Below are positions 55,501 to 64,000 of a DNA stretch of 64,000 nucleotides, piece after piece (positions within the stretch are counted from its first letter, which is position 1; the number at the start of each line of letters is the position of its first letter). Source of the DNA: Bacteroidia bacterium (GTDB lineage: Bacteria; Bacteroidota; Bacteroidia; J057); the NCBI GenBank assembly GCA_033391075.1, contig JAWPMV010000001.1, forward strand, positions 3,782,001-3,846,000, given 5' to 3'. The translations under genes and the position numbers were made by a program. The notes below the pieces were generated by a model, which worked only from the letters and a program-made list of their open reading frames with translations, had not been told where the DNA came from and ran no database searches.

Positions 55501-56802
55501 ATGCGACTTTACAGTACCAAAAATAAGAACAATTTCCGTAGCCTCAAGGAAGCAGTCCTCAAGGGTTTACCCGAAGATAAAGGACTCTTCATGCCGGAGG
55601 AAATCCCTCAATTGCCCCCTGAGTTTTTCCAAAAGCTGCCCCAGATGTCCTTTCCGGAACTGGCCTATGAAGTGAGTAAATGCTTGCTGAAAGGAGCCAT
55701 ACCGGATGAAGAACTGAAAGCTATTATCGAGCAAGCCATCAATTTTGATGCGCCGGTGCATAGTCTGGATGAGGACAAGCATATTTTGGAACTGTTTCAC
55801 GGGCCTTCCCTGGCCTTCAAGGATTTTGGCGCCCGCTTTATGGCCCAGCTGATGTCCTATTTTGTCAAACATGAAGGGAAGAAGCTCTACATCCTGGTGG
55901 CAACTTCGGGCGATACCGGAGGAGCGGTAGCTTCAGGATTTTATCAAACCGAAGGAATCGAAGTAGTCATCCTCTATCCCAGTGGAAAGGTAAGCTTGCT
56001 ACAAGAAAAGCAGTTGACCACCCTCGGCCATAATATACAGGCATTGGAGGTAGATGGAACTTTTGATGATTGTCAGGCATTGGTGAAAGAGGCTTTTCTG
56101 GATAAAGAACTCAATGAAGAGATGAGACTGAGTTCGGCGAATAGCATCAACATAGCCCGCCTGATCCCGCAGTCTTTCTATTATTTCCGCGCCTGGCAAC
56201 AATTAAGACAAAACGATAAAAAAGTTGCCTTTGCGGTGCCCAGTGGAAATTTTGGGAATTTGACAGCCGGATTATTAGCCAAACGAATGGGACTTCCCAT
56301 AGATCATTTCATTGCGGCTACCAATGTCAATGACATCGTTCCCGCTTACCTGGCTTCAGGAGAATATAGCCCCAGGCCTTCTTCTCCAACCATTTCCAAT
56401 GCCATGGACGTAGGTAATCCCAGCAATTTTGAACGAATGAGGGACCTATTCGGAGAGGATTGGGAGAAGATGAAAGCTGAGATCAGTGGGTTTAGCTACA
56501 CGGATGAAGAAACGAGAGAAGCCATCCAGGCAGTTTATGATGCCTATGGCTATATCATAGATCCACATGCAGCCGTGGCCTATTTAGCTTTTCATGACTT
56601 CAGGAAAAATAATCCAAATTATCAGGGAGTCATTTTAGGAACTGCTCATCCGGCCAAATTTCTGGATGTGATTGAGCCTGTATTGGATAGAAAGGTTCCT
56701 GTTCCGGAAAGGCTGGAGATTCTCCGTGATCGCAAAAAAGAATCTATCGAAATTGGAATTGGCTATCCGGAATTTAAGTCTACTCTTTTGAGCCTGCTTT
56801 AA
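55501..56802 (+). CDS. thrC: Threonine synthase
   Basis: A 433-residue PLP-dependent enzyme that converts O-phosphohomoserine to threonine. The internal aldimine Lys107 is in LAFKDFGARF; SGDTGGAVASGF holds the PLP phosphate; AVPSGNFGNLTAGLLAKRMG and NPSNFERM complete the class II-like signature. The start at 55501 gives the full N-terminal domain (MRLYSTKNKN). It supplies threonine to threonine dehydratase, encoded by ilvA at the end of this window. It overlaps the convergent ATP-cone nuclease gene by 4 bp (TTAA shared by both stops). No ilvA-type leader precedes it. Confidence 0.95.
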   Translation: MRLYSTKNKNNFRSLKEAVLKGLPEDKGLFMPEEIPQLPPEFFQKLPQMSFPELAYEVSKCLLKGAIPDEELKAIIEQAINFDAPVHSLDEDKHILELFHGPSLAFKDFGARFMAQLMSYFVKHEGKKLYILVATSGDTGGAVASGFYQTEGIEVVILYPSGKVSLLQEKQLTTLGHNIQALEVDGTFDDCQALVKEAFLDKELNEEMRLSSANSINIARLIPQSFYYFRAWQQLRQNDKKVAFAVPSGNFGNLTAGLLAKRMGLPIDHFIAATNVNDIVPAYLASGEYSPRPSSPTISNAMDVGNPSNFERMRDLFGEDWEKMKAEISGFSYTDEETREAIQAVYDAYGYIIDPHAAVAYLAFHDFRKNNPNYQGVILGTAHPAKFLDVIEPVLDRKVPVPERLEILRDRKKESIEIGIGYPEFKSTLLSLL

Positions 56803-57638
56803 TCACAAAGCCCTTCTATTTCCTGATAGGCTTTATTGATTCGGGTAGGCCTGATATTGAGGCTCTTCAGTAATTCATCCTTGCCCAGCAAATCACGGCA
56901 GAGGACAATTCCTTTATCCAGCAATTTTTGCTTCTCTTTTTTGGTAAGGGAGGTTAAAGTCGTAATAGGATATAGATTTTCTGCTTCGATCAGGTCTCGC
57001 AAATTTCCCTCTTTAGGGAATCCCCAGGAAACGAGATTCATCCCATAATAGGTTCCGTAATTCAGGGCATCCTCTGTAAAGCGTGAGTTGGTAACGATCC
57101 AGCCTTCATACTCCCGGCCTCGAAAGTCTGGATTTTCTTTCCATTCGTTTCGCAAGTCACGAAAACGAGAATGAATATACATGGCTACCCGTACATCCAC
57201 TTTTTTGGAGGCAGTATTTCCGAATTTACATTCAACCATAATCTGCCGATTGCCCTTTACCCCAAATACATCGACTTCATGAGTAATCCCTTTCCCTTGC
57301 ATCACCACTCCCACTTTCACTTCAAAACCCTGCTTCTTAAGAATCTCTCCCACGAATCTTTCGAAAGGATAACCCGAAGGCCCAAGCTCCATTACCGCTG
57401 ATTTCAATTTATATTTTGCTGCACAAGGGCGGCCATTTTTTTTGAGCAGAGCATAGGCTTTTTGGTAAATTTTGCGGGAAGAAATGCCCGGTACCAAAGT
57501 CGCCTCTACCTCTTCTGCGATTTCACGTACTGTCAGTTCATCGGCTCCTGCCTTGGTCAGAGATTGCCTGAGTTTCTTTCCATCGTAGGGAACTAATTCC
57601 CCTGAGGCTTTCGTGATGTATAATTCTTTTATCTGCAT
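56799..57638 (-). CDS. ATP-cone domain fused to an Mrr-like restriction-endonuclease domain
   Basis: A 279-residue protein with no signal peptide. Residues 1-85 form an ATP-cone (ITKASGELVPYDGKKLRQSL), the regulatory nucleotide-binding module of ribonucleotide reductases and NrdR. Residues 90-215 are a PD-(D/E)xK nuclease: GYPFERFVGEILKKQGFEV, Asp123 in HEVDVFG, Glu136 and Lys138 in MVECKFG. The last 60 residues contain a helix-hairpin-helix-like segment (LLDKGIVLCRDLLGKDELL). The domain set suggests a nuclease gated by ATP/dATP, perhaps in defence or DNA repair (inference). It lies alone, with no methylase nearby. Confidence 0.8.
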   Translation of the reverse strand: MQIKELYITKASGELVPYDGKKLRQSLTKAGADELTVREIAEEVEATLVPGISSRKIYQKAYALLKKNGRPCAAKYKLKSAVMELGPSGYPFERFVGEILKKQGFEVKVGVVMQGKGITHEVDVFGVKGNRQIMVECKFGNTASKKVDVRVAMYIHSRFRDLRNEWKENPDFRGREYEGWIVTNSRFTEDALNYGTYYGMNLVSWGFPKEGNLRDLIEAENLYPITTLTSLTKKEKQKLLDKGIVLCRDLLGKDELLKSLNIRPTRINKAYQEIEGLCD

Positions 57639-57658: not shown

Positions 57659-57754
57659 TGTCATTGCGAACGAAGTGAAGCAATCTCCTTAAATCCAATA
57701 ACCTTATAAAAATCAAGAGGATTGCTTCGCCGTAGTTTCCGGCTCGCAATGACA
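57659..57754. repeat. Dispersed repeat R1, full copy
   Basis: Outer arms TGTCATTGCGA (57659-57669) and CTCGCAATGACA (57743-57754), inner arms GAAGCAATCTCCTT and AAGAGGATTGCTTC, and a right flank CAGCTTTGCTGGGTC shared with the copy at 35069-35164. It directly follows the start of the ATP-cone gene (in its upstream region). The 576 bp gap 57639-58214 contains this repeat and the ilv leader. Confidence 0.85.
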
Positions 57755-57920
57755 GCTTTGCTGGGTCTTTGGCTAAAATGTAAGCACTCATCTATTTCAA
57801 AAACTGATGATCAATCGCTAAGATAAGTCGAATCCTGTTAAGAAGGGAAAGCATCTTCTAATCCCGAAAAAATCTTTTTGCAAAGGCTTTTCCTTCATTC
57901 TCAGTCTCTTCGACAAGAAA

Positions 57921-57957
57921 TTTGGCCTAGAGGCCTAAAAATTTAGCTTAATATTTG
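57921..57957 (+). promoter_or_regulatory. Candidate promoter/operator region of ilv operon
   Basis: AATATTTG (57950-57957) resembles the Bacteroidota -7 element TAnnTTTG at 7 of 8 positions, and a TTTG lies upstream at 57921-57924, but their spacing (25 nt) exceeds the usual 19-21. An inverted repeat TTTGGCCTAGAGGCCTAAA (57921-57939, one mismatch) overlaps the upstream part and could be an operator. The region is the natural place for the ilv promoter, 47-80 bp ahead of the leader peptide. Confidence 0.35.
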
Positions 57958-58003
57958 GAAAGCAAATGAAAGGTTTCCATATTTACAGCGTTCAAAAGAA
58001 AAA

Positions 58004-58069
58004 ATGAAAATTTTGCAATCCATACTATCCATTATTATTAATGTCGTAAGCATTATTCTTCGTAATTGA
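58004..58069 (+). CDS. ilv operon leader peptide (21 codons)
   Basis: ATG 58004 to TGA 58067-58069 encodes 21 residues, of which seven are Ile, three Leu and two Val: the core reads SIIINVVSIILRN. Twelve of 21 being branched-chain residues, with runs Ile-Ile-Ile, Val-Val and Ile-Ile-Leu, is the design of an attenuation leader: ribosome stalling when charged tRNA-Ile/Val/Leu is short. It is preceded by an A-rich start region (AAAAGAAAAAATG) and followed directly by two mutually exclusive hairpins. Too short to be noticed by routine gene calling. Confidence 0.85.
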   Translation: MKILQSILSIIINVVSIILRN

Positions 58070-58070
58070 A

Positions 58071-58113
58071 GGAGAGTGGTTTTGCATACATAACATAATA
58101 AAAACCATTCTCC
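58071..58113 (+). promoter_or_regulatory. ilv antiterminator hairpin
   Basis: GGAGAGTGGTTTT (58071-58083), starting one base after the leader stop codon, is complementary to AAAACCATTCTCC (58101-58113) at 13 of 13 positions if one G.U pair is allowed. The second strand is the same sequence that forms the left side of the terminator, so only one of the two can form. A ribosome at the leader stop would cover 58071-58083 and let the terminator form; one stalled earlier at the Ile/Val codons would leave the antiterminator free. Confidence 0.82.
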
Positions 58114-58132
58114 TTACAGAGAATGGTTTTTT
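58101..58132 (+). terminator. ilv attenuator terminator
   Basis: AAAACCATTCTC (58101-58112), loop CTTACA (58113-58118), GAGAATGGTTTT (58119-58130), followed by T to 58132: a perfect 12 bp stem with a short loop and U-tail. It ends 82 bp before the ilvD start codon. Together with the leader peptide and antiterminator it makes a complete attenuator. Confidence 0.88.
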
Positions 58133-58214
58133 GCTTTTGGATCAGCAATTAAGAGAGAAAACGGAATTATTTAGAACTCATTCAAAAAACATACTTCTAC
58201 ATAGCTAAAACGAT

Positions 58215-59882
58215 ATGAACCGCTACAGTAAAAGATTGACCCAGGATGAAACTCAGCCAGCAGCATTGGCTATGCTATACGGTTTGGGTTTGAGTGAAGA
58301 AGACCTGAACAAGGCACAGGTAGGCATCGTGAGCACCGGTTACGAGGGCAATACCTGCAATATGCATTTGAATGATTTGGCAACACGCGTGAAAGCCGGA
58401 GTAATGGATGAGGACCTTTTGGGTCTGATCTTTCACACGATAGGTGTGAGTGATGGAATGTCAATGGGAACGGAAGGAATGCGTTACTCTCTTCCTTCCC
58501 GAGATGTAATTGCCGACTCCATAGAAACTGTAGTAAATGCCCAATGGTACGATAGCCTGATCACAGTTGTGGGTTGCGATAAGAATATGCCGGGTGCCAT
58601 GATGGCTATAGCTCGCCTCAATCGTCCTTCTATTCTGGTGTACGGAGGTTCTATAGCTGGAGGACATTATAAAGGAGAAACCCTGAACATCGTTTCCGCA
58701 TTTGAGGCTTTGGGCGAAAAAGTTGCCGGCAACATCAGTCCGGAAGACTTCAAAGGCATCATACAAAATGCATGTCCGGGAGCGGGTGCATGCGGAGGTA
58801 TGTACACGGCAAATACGATGGCTACAGCCATAGAAGCCATGGGAATGAGTCTTCCCTACAGTGCTTCGAATCCAGCCGTAAGTGAAGATAAATATGCGGA
58901 ATGCCTGAAAGCCGGAAGTGCTATCAGGCATTTGCTTTCTGAGAACATTCTTCCCAGAGATATCATGACCAAAAAGGCTTTTGAAAATGCCCTGACCATG
59001 ATCATGATTATGGGAGGATCTACCAATTCTGCCTTGCACATGATTGCTATCGCCAAGGCAGCCGAAGTAGATATCACCCTGGATGATTTTCAGCGAATCA
59101 GTGATAAAACTCCTTATATCGGGGATCTAAAGCCTTCAGGTAAATACCTGATGAAGGATGTACATGCATTGGGAGGCACACCTGCTGTAATGAAAATGGT
59201 GTTGGAAGCCGGTTATCTGCATGGAGATTGTATGACAGTTACCGGTAAAACGCTGGCTGAAAATCTGGCTGAGCTTCCGGGACTTCCTGCAGAACAAAAA
59301 CTCTTCTACTCTTTCGACAATCCCATCAAAGAGAGTGGCCATCTGCAAATCCTGTATGGGAATTTAGCTGAGGATGGTTGTGTAGCAAAAATCACAGGAA
59401 AAGAAGGAGAAGTATTTGAAGGAGTAGCTCATGTTTTTGATAGTGAGTTTGAGGCAAATGAAGCCATAGTAGCCGGGAAAGTAGTTTCAGGTGAAGTAAT
59501 CGTAATTCGCTATGAAGGACCCAAAGGAGGACCGGGCATGCCTGAGATGCTAAAACCAACCGGAGCCATTATGGGAGCTGGATTGGGAAATAGTGTAGCC
59601 CTGATTACCGACGGAAGATTTTCCGGAGGCACCCATGGATTTGTTGTGGGACATATCACTCCGGAAGCTCAGGTTGGCGGCTTGATTGGCTTGCTGGAGA
59701 ATGGAGATAAAATCACCATAGATGCAAAAGACAATAAGATCGTTGCACATATTTCGGAAGAAGAAATAGCGAAAAGAAGGGCCAGCTGGAGCCCCAAACC
59801 TCCCAGAGTAAGTCGGGGAGTACTTTACAAATACAGCAAAACTGTATCCACTGCCTCAGAAGGCTGTGTTACTGACCAATAG
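58215..59882 (+). CDS. ilvD: Dihydroxy-acid dehydratase
   Basis: A 555-residue Fe-S enzyme that dehydrates 2,3-dihydroxy-isovalerate and -3-methylvalerate to the 2-oxo acids. Cluster ligands are Cys48 (GNTCNMH), Cys121 ([10 protein letters not shown]) and Cys193 ([12 protein letters not shown]); KGGPGMPEM and [12 protein letters not shown] are the other signatures. Length and start are normal. It is the first gene of ilvD-ilvB-ilvN-ilvC-ilvA and lies behind the attenuator at 58004-58132, so all five genes probably share its control. Confidence 0.97.
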
Positions 59883-59905: not shown

Positions 59906-61642
59906 ATGCCGACTGCGTTTAAAGCTTCTCAACAAGTCCTCTCAGCCACCGGGAAAAAAGTCTCGGGCTCAGAGGCCGTAATCCTATCTCTCATTGCCGA
60001 GGGGGTTGATACCATCTTCGGATATCCGGGAGGAGCCATTATGCCTGTGTATGATGCTTTGTATGATTATATGGATGTGCTTAACCACATTCTGGTCAGA
60101 CATGAACAAGGTGCAACACATGCAGCTCAAGGCTACGCCAGGGTAACCAACAAGACAGGGGTCTGCCTCGTAACTTCCGGTCCGGGAGCTACCAATCTGG
60201 TAACAGGGATTGCAGATGCCATGATCGATTCTACCCCTATGGTCTGCATCAGCGGACAGGTGCCTCGCCATCTGCTGGGTTCTGATGCTTTCCAGGAAGT
60301 TGATGTGATCGGTATTACCATGCCCATCACCAAGTGGAGCTATCAAATTACCGATGCCCGTGAGATCCCCGAAGTTTTTGCCAAAGCCTTTTATCTGGCA
60401 AATTCAGGAAGGCCGGGACCGGTAATGATTGATATTTGCAAAAACGCAGAACTGGGAGAACTTGATTTCTTCTATACTCCCTGCAATAAAGTCAGAGCTT
60501 ACCATCCCTATCCGGAAGTTGATCAGGCTTGCTTACATAAAGCAGCTGACCTCCTGAATAATGCCAAAAAGCCCTACATCCTGCTAGGACATGGGGTTTT
60601 AATTTCAGAAGCACAGCCTGAGTTTCGTGCTTTCATTGAAAAAACCGGTATTCCGGTGGGAAGCACCCTGCAAGGACTATCTGCTTTAGAATCAGATCAT
60701 CCTCTTCATACCGGCATGCTGGGTATGCATGGAAATTACGGTCCCAATGTCCTGACCAATGAGGCTGATGTCATTATGGCTGTGGGTATGCGATTTGATG
60801 ATCGGGTTACCGGTGATGTAAATCGATATGCCAAGCAGGCCCAGGTCATTCATATCGAAATCGATGAGTCTGAAATCGACAAGAATGTAAAAGCGGCTGT
60901 CCCATTAGTGGGAGATGCCAAAGCTGTTTTACGTGCGCTATATCCCCTGGTGAATGATAACTCACATGAGGAATGGATGCAGCGATTTAGAGATTGTGCA
61001 GCAGAAGAATATGAAAAAGTCATCATGAAGGATATGAATCCGGAAGGAGAGCTTTGCCATATGGCCGAAGTTGTGAATAAGCTTTCTGATAAAACAGAAG
61101 GAAAAGCAATCGTGGTTACCGATGTAGGTCAACACCAAATGGTGACTGCTCGCTATTATAAATATAAAGATACGGATGGCTGGGTGAGTTCTGGAGGCCT
61201 GGGAACCATGGGCTTTTGCCTGCCTGCTGCTTTCGGAGCAAAATTGGCAGTACCAGAACGAGAAGTTTTGGCCATCATCGGAGATGGATCTTTCCAGATG
61301 ACTATACAGGAACTCGGATGTCTGAGCCAGAATAATACAGCTGTTAAGGTCATCATCCTGAATAATAATTTTCTGGGTATGGTTCGACAGTGGCAGCAAT
61401 TATTCTTTGATCGTCGCTATTCTTTTACAGAATTGACCAATCCGGATTTTGTAAAAATAGCTGATGGATATGGCATTCCTGCCCAAAGGGTAAAAACTCG
61501 CGCAGAACTTGATCAGGCACTCGAAACCATGTTGGCTCATGATGGGCCTTATCTACTGGATATCGTAGTCGAAAAAGAAGAGAATGTATTCCCAATGGTT
61601 CCTTCAGGAGCTGCTGTATCTGAAATTAAACTTGAACCCTAA
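59906..61642 (+). CDS. ilvB: Acetolactate synthase, large (catalytic) subunit
   Basis: A 578-residue ThDP/FAD enzyme that condenses pyruvate with pyruvate or 2-oxobutyrate. Glu67 in [12 protein letters not shown] activates Th[24 protein letters not shown], and GDGSFQM...[12 protein letters not shown] (ThDP-binding GDG-NN motif) are all present. The N-terminal 18 residues are a variable extension. It follows ilvD by 23 bp and precedes ilvN by 5 bp. Regulation by valine through IlvN is expected from the family. Confidence 0.97.
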
Positions 61643-61647
61643 TAACC

Positions 61648-62160
61648 ATGGAAGATCAATCATATACCTTATCCATATTTACCGAGAATAAAGTAGGTCT
61701 TCTGCACAGGATCACTACGATCTTTACGCAAAGACATATCAATATTGAAAGTTTAACCACTTCAGAAACCGAAGTGGAAGGCATTTCCCGCTTCATCATT
61801 GTGATCAATACCAGAGAGGATCAGGTAGTAAAGCTCCGAAAGCAAATCGACAAATTGATCGGAGTAATCAAAGCCTTTATCCTGAGAGAGGAAGATGTCG
61901 TAATGCAGGAAATTGCCTTATATAAACTTACCACGGATAAACTGGCTTCTGATAGTTTTGAACGTATCATTCGGGAAAACAATGCCCGGGTCCTTAGCAT
62001 TACTATGGATTATGTCATGGTGGAAAAAACCGGTCATCCGGGAGAAACCATAGATCTATTCCATAAGCTGGAACCCTTTGGTATACAAGGATTCTCCCGC
62101 TCAGGTACGATCGCTATCTCAAAGAAGCCCCTGATGATAAAATCATATCTAACTATGTAA
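61648..62160 (+). CDS. ilvN: Acetolactate synthase, small (regulatory) subunit
   Basis: A 170-residue ACT-domain protein, starting YTLSIFTENKVGLLHRITTIFTQ, with two ACT-like parts (residues 5-80 and 85-165). It activates IlvB and confers feedback inhibition by branched-chain amino acids. It has five bases between it and ilvB and a 96 bp gap before ilvC. Confidence 0.95.
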   Translation: MEDQSYTLSIFTENKVGLLHRITTIFTQRHINIESLTTSETEVEGISRFIIVINTREDQVVKLRKQIDKLIGVIKAFILREEDVVMQEIALYKLTTDKLASDSFERIIRENNARVLSITMDYVMVEKTGHPGETIDLFHKLEPFGIQGFSRSGTIAISKKPLMIKSYLTM

Positions 62161-62256: not shown

Positions 62257-63321
62257 ATGGCAGTAATCAATTTTGGCGGCGTCGATGAAACGGTTGTAAC
62301 CCGCGAGGAATATCCCCTCGAAAAATCGAGAGAAATCCTTCAGGGAGATACTCTGGCGGTATTGGGATATGGCGTGCAAGGGCCCGCACAGGCACTCAAT
62401 TTGAAAGAAAATGGATTCAATGTAATCATTGGTCAGCGGGAAAATTCTGCTAGCTGGGACAAAGCTGTTGCTGATGGCTGGGTACCTGGACAGACTTTAT
62501 TCTCCTTGGAAGAAGCCTGCGCAAAAGCTACAATCATTATGAATTTGCTTTCTGACGCAGGTCAAATAGCCACATGGCCAACCGTAAAATCTCACCTGAC
62601 AGAAGGAAAAACTCTTTGCTTCTCTCATGGATTTGCGATTACCTATCACGATCAGACTTCTATAATTCCTCCTGAGAATGTAGATGTTGTACTTGTAGCT
62701 CCTAAAGGTTCAGGAACCAGCTTGAGAAGAAACTTTTTAGCAGGAGCAGGAATCAATTCCAGTTTTGCTATCCACCAAAACGCTACCGGAAACGCCAGAG
62801 AAAAAATCATTGCTATCGGTATTGGTATTGGTTCTGGATTCCTTTTTGAAACAACTTTCAAGAAAGAAGTATTTAGCGACCTTACCGGAGAAAGAGGTAT
62901 CCTTATGGGTGCTTTGGCTGGGGTAATGGAAGCTCAATACAATATTCTGAGAGAAAAAGGACATTCTCCTTCTGAGGCATTCAATGAAACCGTAGAGGAA
63001 TTGACACAATCTCTGATCCGTTTGGTTGCTGAAAATGGCATGGACTGGATGTATGCCAACTGTTCTACAACAGCACAAAGAGGAGCTTTGGATTGGAAAG
63101 ATCGTTTCCGCGATGCTACTGCACCTGTTTTTGCAGATCTCTATGAGAGTGTAGCAACTGGAAATGAAGCAAGAATCACGATAGAAGCTAATAGTGATCC
63201 TCAGTATAGAGAAAAGCTGGGTGAAGAATTGGCGGCAATCGCAGATTCAGAAATGTGGCGTGCAGGAGCAGCTGTAAGAGAGCTCCGTCCAGAAAGACAA
63301 AGCGCAAATAGTAACGCATAA
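62257..63321 (+). CDS. ilvC: Ketol-acid reductoisomerase
   Basis: A 354-residue NADPH-dependent enzyme that isomerises and reduces acetolactate. The Rossmann loop LGYGVQGPAQ is at residues 36-45, and the NADPH-phosphate contact loop GQRENSASW holds Arg61, Ser64 and Ser66, which points to NADPH preference. Acidic metal ligands lie in the helical half (for example LTGERGILMGAL). It follows ilvN by 96 bp, where two TTAATTAA octamers (62233-62240, 62244-62251) sit directly before the start codon. It is followed by a hairpin. Confidence 0.96.
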   Translation: MAVINFGGVDETVVTREEYPLEKSREILQGDTLAVLGYGVQGPAQALNLKENGFNVIIGQRENSASWDKAVADGWVPGQTLFSLEEACAKATIIMNLLSDAGQIATWPTVKSHLTEGKTLCFSHGFAITYHDQTSIIPPENVDVVLVAPKGSGTSLRRNFLAGAGINSSFAIHQNATGNAREKIIAIGIGIGSGFLFETTFKKEVFSDLTGERGILMGALAGVMEAQYNILREKGHSPSEAFNETVEELTQSLIRLVAENGMDWMYANCSTTAQRGALDWKDRFRDATAPVFADLYESVATGNEARITIEANSDPQYREKLGEELAAIADSEMWRAGAAVRELRPERQSANSNA

Positions 63322-63372: not shown

Positions 63373-64000
63373 ATGGTCTCTGAAAAAACGAGCCTTTTGC
63401 CTCTGGGAAAAATAGTCGAGGCAAATGAGCGACTAAAGGGAGTTGTCATGCGCACTCCTTTAATGGAAAACCTCAACCTTTCCCATAAGTTCAGGAGCAA
63501 GATCCGCCTGAAGCGGGAGGATCTGCAAGTAGTACGATCCTACAAACTGAGAGGGGCATATAATAAGATGTCTCAACTGGATCCTGAAGTGGCCCGAAGG
63601 GGAATTGTCTGTGCCAGTGCTGGCAATCATGCACAAGGCGTAGCATTTTCCTGTCATGCCCTCAAGATTTCCGGAAAAATCTTCATGCCCGGGACTACTC
63701 CCAAACAGAAGGTTCAGAAAGTACAAATGTTTGGGCAAAACAGGGTTGAGATTGTGTTGGTTGGAGATACCTATGATGAAGCCTATAGCGCAGCTATGGG
63801 AGATTGTGCTGCACATCAGAAAACCTTTATCCATCCCTTCGATGATTTTGAGGTAATGGCAGGTCAGGGAACCGTAGCTATGGAAATCCTGGCTGATAGC
63901 CATGAGCCGATAGATTATGTATTCCTGGCAATCGGAGGAGGAGGCCTGGCTTCTGGCCTGGGTTCCTACCTAAAACAACTTAGTCCCAAAACAAAGATCA
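63373..64000 (+). CDS. ilvA: Threonine dehydratase (threonine ammonia-lyase), N-terminal part, runs off the window
   Basis: The frame from ATG 63373 continues open to the window end (209 codons seen). It is the fold-type II PLP domain of threonine dehydratase: Lys58 in VRSYKLRGAYN is the PLP lysine, SAGNHAQGVA the substrate loop, and GGGGLASGL the phosphate loop. It makes 2-oxobutyrate from threonine, the first step to isoleucine. It ends the ilvDBNCA cluster as far as seen. The C-terminal regulatory ACT domains, if present, lie outside. Confidence 0.95.
   Translation, partial: MVSEKTSLLPLGKIVEANERLKGVVMRTPLMENLNLSHKFRSKIRLKREDLQVVRSYKLRGAYNKMSQLDPEVARRGIVCASAGNHAQGVAFSCHALKISGKIFMPGTTPKQKVQKVQMFGQNRVEIVLVGDTYDEAYSAAMGDCAAHQKTFIHPFDDFEVMAGQGTVAMEILADSHEPIDYVFLAIGGGGLASGLGSYLKQLSPKTKI

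Follow-up and report, generated by a model that had tools for sequence, protein, structure and literature searches.

Leader-peptide attenuation of ilv operons belongs to the textbook biology of enteric bacteria, and this type of control requires a ribosome that stays close behind the RNA polymerase. Predicted leader-peptide attenuators in bacteria are said to have been the subject of a large computational survey by Lopatovskaya, Seliverstov and Lyubetsky in 2010 (Mol Biol 44:128; cited in PMC10272879), which may include Bacteroidota ilv leaders. Attenuation is experimentally supported at the ilvBNC leader of Corynebacterium glutamicum (PMC10272879, PMC11857589). For Flavobacterium psychrophilum, the main text of a study of mapped 5' transcript regions suggests leader-peptide attenuation upstream of amino-acid operons (PMC9723704), and short ORFs reminiscent of leader peptides have been described in Bacteroides thetaiotaomicron (PMC7366714). 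We have analysed a 64 kb stretch of DNA from a member of the Bacteroidia (hereafter the window, meaning the whole stretch) in which an original prediction, made from the letters alone, had placed a complete leader-peptide attenuator in front of an ilvDBNCA operon. With little doubt, this element is a transcription attenuator of the ribosome-mediated type, as classically known from trp, his and ilv operons, a reading that is supported by the anatomy of the locus (the sequence elements and both hairpins), by conservation and covariation among related loci and by switching with ribosome position in a folding model.

The features of the locus are listed in Table 1. The leader ORF, which is probably translated, starts with an ATG at 58004 and encodes a peptide, MKILQSILSIIINVVSIILRN, in which 12 of the 21 residues are branched-chain (7 I, 3 L and 2 V) and which contains III, VV and IIL runs, just as had been described. 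It is therefore a short ORF rich in codons for the amino acids of the operon downstream. When both strands of the 64 kb were scanned for ATG ORFs of at most 45 codons with at least 40% I/V/L, a run of three and a terminator no more than 110 nt from the stop, the ilvD leader was the only site retrieved. The genes that follow were named by NCBIfam models, which bore out the predicted ilvDBNCA order, with ilvA being partial in the window and hence below the whole-protein cut-off of the IlvA models. The gene upstream of the leader (56799-57638) lies on the reverse strand, which implies that the terminator does not belong to an operon upstream; this gene is unnamed, and a search against NCBIfam gave no match for it. 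It separates the leader from thrC (threonine synthase, TIGR00260; 55501-56802), found on the same strand as the leader and approximately 1.2 kb before it. Between this reverse-strand gene and the leader, a segment at 57660-57770 (GTCATTGCGAACGAAGTGAAGCAATCTCC ... GGATTGCTTCG...GCTCGCAATGAC) resembles an inverted-repeat element.

Table 1. Features of the ilv leader region and of the operon downstream (window coordinates)
Feature	Coordinates	Strand	Sequence, model or remark
Weak promoter candidate, Bacteroidota type	57954..57987	+	TTTG at 57954, 22 nt, TATTTACA at 57980; consensus TAnnTTTG
Leader ORF ilvL	58004..58069	+	21 codons, MKILQSILSIIINVVSIILRN; stop TGA 58067-58069
Control codons	58031..58060	+	III 58031-58039, VV 58043-58048, IIL 58052-58060; from ribosome-position folding
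Possible protector strand inside the leader (tentative)	58051..58061	+	Can pair with strand 1 (58071-58079)
Strand 1, 5' half of antiterminator	58069..58083	+	AAGGAGAGTGGTTTT; overlaps leader stop by one base
Strand 2, common to antiterminator (with strand 1) and terminator (with strand 3)	58100..58115	+	AAAAACCATTCTCCTT
Strand 3, 3' arm of terminator	58119..58131	+	GAGAATGGTTTTT; near-copy of strand 1
U tract of intrinsic terminator	58127..58138	+	TTTTTTGCTTTT; short transcript predicted to end near 58132
ilvD, dihydroxy-acid dehydratase, first regulated gene	58215..59882	+	TIGR00110 equivalog, above cut-off
ilvB, acetolactate synthase large subunit	59906..61642	+	TIGR00118
ilvN, acetolactate synthase small subunit	61648..62160	+	TIGR00119
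ilvC, ketol-acid reductoisomerase	62257..63321	+	TIGR00465
ilvA, threonine ammonia-lyase	63373..64000, continues beyond window end	+	N-terminal half matches NF006390, TIGR02079

Between the leader and the first structural gene lies an intrinsic terminator (58100-58132), whose U tract reads TTTTTT at 58127-58132 and then GCTTTT. Its 5' arm is shared with an antiterminator, and the two structures are mutually exclusive. Strands 1 and 3 being near-copies, strand 2 is able to pair with either: complementarity spans 15 nt at 93% between 58069-58083 and 58101-58115 (strands 1 and 2), and 13 nt at 100% between 58100-58112 and 58119-58131 (strands 2 and 3). Folded alone, the 1-2 hairpin reaches -20.1 kcal/mol (z -6.6 against dinucleotide shuffles) and the 2-3 hairpin -15.7 kcal/mol (z -6.7), and none of 200 shuffles equalled either of them. 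Both of the pairings that had been proposed, 1-2 as antiterminator and 2-3 as terminator with a U-tail, are thus far more stable than shuffled sequence. The leader stop codon had also been said to abut strand 1 directly, of which the adjacency holds but not the exact abutment, because the last base of the stop is already the first of the full strand-1 helix.

In the mechanism that these elements suggest, RNA polymerase would transcribe the leader and a ribosome would follow on MKILQSILSIIINVVSIILRN. With charged Ile- and Val-tRNA (and perhaps Leu-tRNA) plentiful, the ribosome would reach the stop at 58067 and its footprint would cover strand 1, leaving strand 2 to strand 3, and transcription would end near 58132. 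Were Ile or Val short, the ribosome would stall on the III, VV or II codons and strand 1 would be free to pair with strand 2 ahead of the synthesis of strand 3, so that the polymerase would read on into ilvDBNCA. The RNA downstream of the ribosome was folded for each leader codon, with 10-16 nt from the A-site codon assumed to be covered. On this assumption, a ribosome positioned at the stop blocks the antiterminator in silico, while one stalled on control codons does not. The modelled probability of the terminator is 0.96 with the A site anywhere from 58064 to the stop, whichever footprint was tried, and approximately zero with the A site on 58043-58055, rising to 0.19 at some footprint sizes. 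A ribosome on the III codons gives intermediate to low values that depend on the footprint, and the last control codons (IIL) are too near strand 1 to free it fully. In the intermediate modelled before strand 3 is made, the antiterminator (1-2) has a probability of 0.98. We infer that transcription and translation are coupled at this leader and that the extent of termination depends on the supply of amino acids.

Conservation was assessed in ilvD loci drawn from named GTDB genomes, from the family of the window and, drawn evenly, from its class. As much as 2 kb upstream of ilvD was taken, which gave 172 loci after removal of duplicates, nearly all of them Bacteroidota by record title or kinship (a few titles name other groups, some perhaps misbinned). 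An I/V-rich short ORF with a terminator, either before ilvD or before an ilvE that precedes ilvD, is present in 101 of the 172 loci compared with about 1% of shuffles; our detector, the thresholds of which we set ourselves, matched no leader with terminator in the other 71 ilvD loci, which were taken as a group and not singly. When only the last 600 nt before ilvD are considered, 46/172 loci have a leader and a terminator, versus 0.9% of shuffles and 2/172 when the reverse strand is read. The distance to ilvD is at most 450 nt for 46 leaders and greater for 55, and since an ilvE homologue is found between leader and ilvD in 51 of the latter, the leader still heads the operon there. The leader peptides are alike in composition (25% I, 14% V and 11% L) but not in sequence, as would be expected if the codons, rather than the peptide, matter.

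Within the family of the window, three genomes (G001, G002 and G012; loci L180, L181 and L183) have a comparable leader and switching strands before ilvE-ilvD, while a fourth (G009; L184) has leader and terminator directly before ilvD and strand pairing that is not significant (p 0.12). A narrow upstream survey had given the impression that the closest relatives have no leader, which was rejected because several of them have ilvE before ilvD and the leader upstream of ilvE. Conservation of leader and strands in relatives, which had been proposed as a check, is therefore borne out. The Bacteroidota setting, which had been implied to be unusual, is not exceptional: the arrangement is common there, and attenuation by leader peptides had already been suggested for amino-acid operons of F. 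psychrophilum.

The strands themselves are also maintained. At every one of the 101 loci, we searched a region that runs up to the terminator, starting 45 nt upstream of the last base of the leader stop codon, for the sequence that best matches the terminator's 5' arm, and set this match against 200 shuffles of that region. Complementarity between strands 1 and 2 beats these shuffles in 70 loci at p<=0.05 and in 50 at p<=0.01, values that overstate certainty because related sequences are not independent, although the variety of strand sequences is large; the other 31, some from Flavobacterium among them, have no significant strand-1 match (p>0.05). Strand 1 is centred no more than 15 nt from the leader stop in 95 of the 101 loci, versus about 47 expected (shuffled matches spread evenly), and the stop codon overlaps it in 55. 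To exclude a merely shared motif, the strand-1 region of each locus was paired with the arms of all the others. The mean is -12.4 kcal/mol for own pairs and -8.2 for foreign ones, a permutation z of -17.3, and strands 1 and 2 of the window form the top-ranking pair among all loci in both directions. All three strands covary, for example as ATCGGGGCGGT / ACCGCCTCGA / TCGGGGCGGT in L116, AGTGAGGCACT / AGTGCCTCA / TGAGGCACT in L172 and GAGAATGG / CCATTCTC / GAGAATGG in L180. A scan of ribosome positions across loci by constrained-ensemble folding, which like all switching results presented here is a thermodynamic model, shows an equilibrium switch in 22/101 loci versus 3% of codon-shuffled controls. 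Elsewhere the equilibrium mostly favours the terminator, and regulation at those loci would depend on strands 1 and 2 pairing before strand 3 is transcribed.

Leaders start in A-rich stretches, with a Shine-Dalgarno-like sequence in only 1 of the 101 loci, and the window leader is no different from its relatives in its A-rich start context and lack of a Shine-Dalgarno sequence. This agrees with published work on F. johnsoniae and with the lack of such sequences in Bacteroidota mRNAs (PMC6847099). A promoter of the Bacteroidota type (TTG-N18..24-TAnnTTTG) precedes the leader in 16 of the 98 loci that have enough upstream sequence, versus 1.4 expected, and in relatives the TAnnTTTG element most commonly ends 19 nt before the leader ATG. 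The candidate promoter of the window fits this position, with a degenerate -7 element.

The arrangement had been described as a simple two-hairpin one. The two hairpins are there and the simple form may be right, but its simplicity is less certain since the leader may also pair with strand 1. In a four-strand form of the same attenuator, a leader segment would protect strand 1 and an untranslated RNA would be terminated, as in E. coli trp. We regard this form, a sub-variant compatible with the attenuator explanation, as possible though somewhat doubtful. In its favour, the equilibrium model still prefers the terminator when no ribosome is present (P 0.83-0.88), owing to potential pairing of strand 1 with leader bases 58051-58061 and 58014-58030; for the first of these segments, the modelled probability of the protector pairing is about 0.6 before strand 2 is made. 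Moreover, all three states are displayed by 20/101 loci versus 1.6% of controls, and leader-strand 1 complementarity is weakly above that of codon-shuffled leaders when pooled (p 0.003, with 7/70 below 0.05). However, in the window itself this complementarity is no better than in codon-shuffled leaders (p 0.21), and the dominance of the 1-2 pairing (0.98) before strand 3 is made means that kinetics could favour read-through. A rather unlikely view is that Bacteroidota share an uncatalogued phylum-wide design, in which the leader has no Shine-Dalgarno sequence, its stop lies on the antiterminator strand and there is no protector hairpin, so that termination would need a ribosome at the stop and absence of translation would mean read-through. 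If true, the prevalence of this protector-less design would be evidence for coupled transcription and translation in the phylum.

Whichever its form, attenuation has to be weighed against a simpler explanation, in which the 5' UTR contains just an intrinsic terminator with fixed read-through, the short ORF is accidental and nothing switches. The terminator hairpin is indeed strong by itself and equilibrium switching is seen in only 22/101 loci, but I/V-rich ORFs precede a terminator about 30 times more often than they do in shuffled sequence, and strand 1, located at the leader stop, both complements strand 2 and covaries with it, all of which makes this explanation very improbable. Riboswitches and T-boxes also use alternative terminator/antiterminator pairs as their output stage, yet control of the alternative structures by a protein or small molecule instead of a translating ribosome is hardly credible here, because an Rfam search of the leader region for known leaders, riboswitches and T-boxes gave only chance-level matches to unrelated families, none at gathering score, and because strand sequences vary between loci while only the pairing and the I/V content of the ORF are kept, which leaves no conserved binding site.

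Ribosome-mediated attenuation in Bacteroidota seems to extend beyond ilv. Upstream of hisG, 22 of 29 usable loci from the taxonomic class of the window have a short ORF that contains His codons and that a terminator either follows or overlaps (a raw count, taken without a null model), which suggests that the phylum makes general use of leader-peptide attenuation. The ORFs in this set (L233-L261) are His-rich, such as MNRTHHHHHLTYSENPE or MKTTSHTHHHVCTPIR, and the stem mostly starts about 20-45 nt after the leader stop. In the genome to which the window belongs, where other attenuators were sought at hisG, leuA and thrA, a candidate his leader ending in ...FHVHHIHHSSL is found upstream of hisG (L199:1132-1257), with a terminator-like hairpin (ATTCCTCCCTATAGGAGGAAT then TATTTTTTA) enclosing its stop and last codons. 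A ribosome held up at the His codons could therefore block this terminator directly, with no antiterminator needed. A pattern search of the genome for runs of His codons retrieved no leader, the his leader having been found only upstream of hisG. Upstream of leuA in the same genome (L200), the stop of a Leu-rich short ORF, MLARPLCLRLLFLPV, lies in a terminator loop (CCTGCCTGTTTAGGCAGGTTTTTT), and no leader like it was found upstream of leuA in 29 other genomes.

The recurrence of ilv leaders suggests that ilv operon control in Bacteroidota would operate largely by ribosome stalling in the leader. This kind of control is known, but its wide distribution before ilv genes in the phylum has apparently gone uncatalogued. 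Such leaders are missing from gene lists, as had been anticipated for the one in the window, and from Rfam, they would explain short 5' transcripts in RNA-seq data, and they offer ready-made amino-acid-responsive switches. Since the ribosome must follow the polymerase closely, they also make transcription-translation coupling in Bacteroidota directly testable. In accord with abundant attenuators, a 2026 paper in which phyla are divided into those with runaway and those with coupled transcription does not place Bacteroidota among the runaway ones (PMC13323073).

The enteric ilvGMEDA and ilvBN leaders resemble the one described here in having a branched-chain-rich ORF, overlapping antiterminator and terminator hairpins and the same operon function. 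They differ from it in that, in the present case, the leader stop falls on the antiterminator strand, a protector hairpin is doubtful and the leader starts without a Shine-Dalgarno sequence. The leaders suggested for F. psychrophilum (PMC9723704) belong to the same phylum and the same kind of control, although the main text of that study names no ilv leader ('ilv' occurs 0 times). The Corynebacterium ilvBNC leader (ilvB-II motif; PMC10272879, PMC11857589) likewise combines a short I/L/V-rich ORF with a terminator and an antiterminator, but it comes from a different phylum, its first gene is ilvB instead of ilvD, and an anti-antiterminator is part of the C. glutamicum model as a third hairpin.
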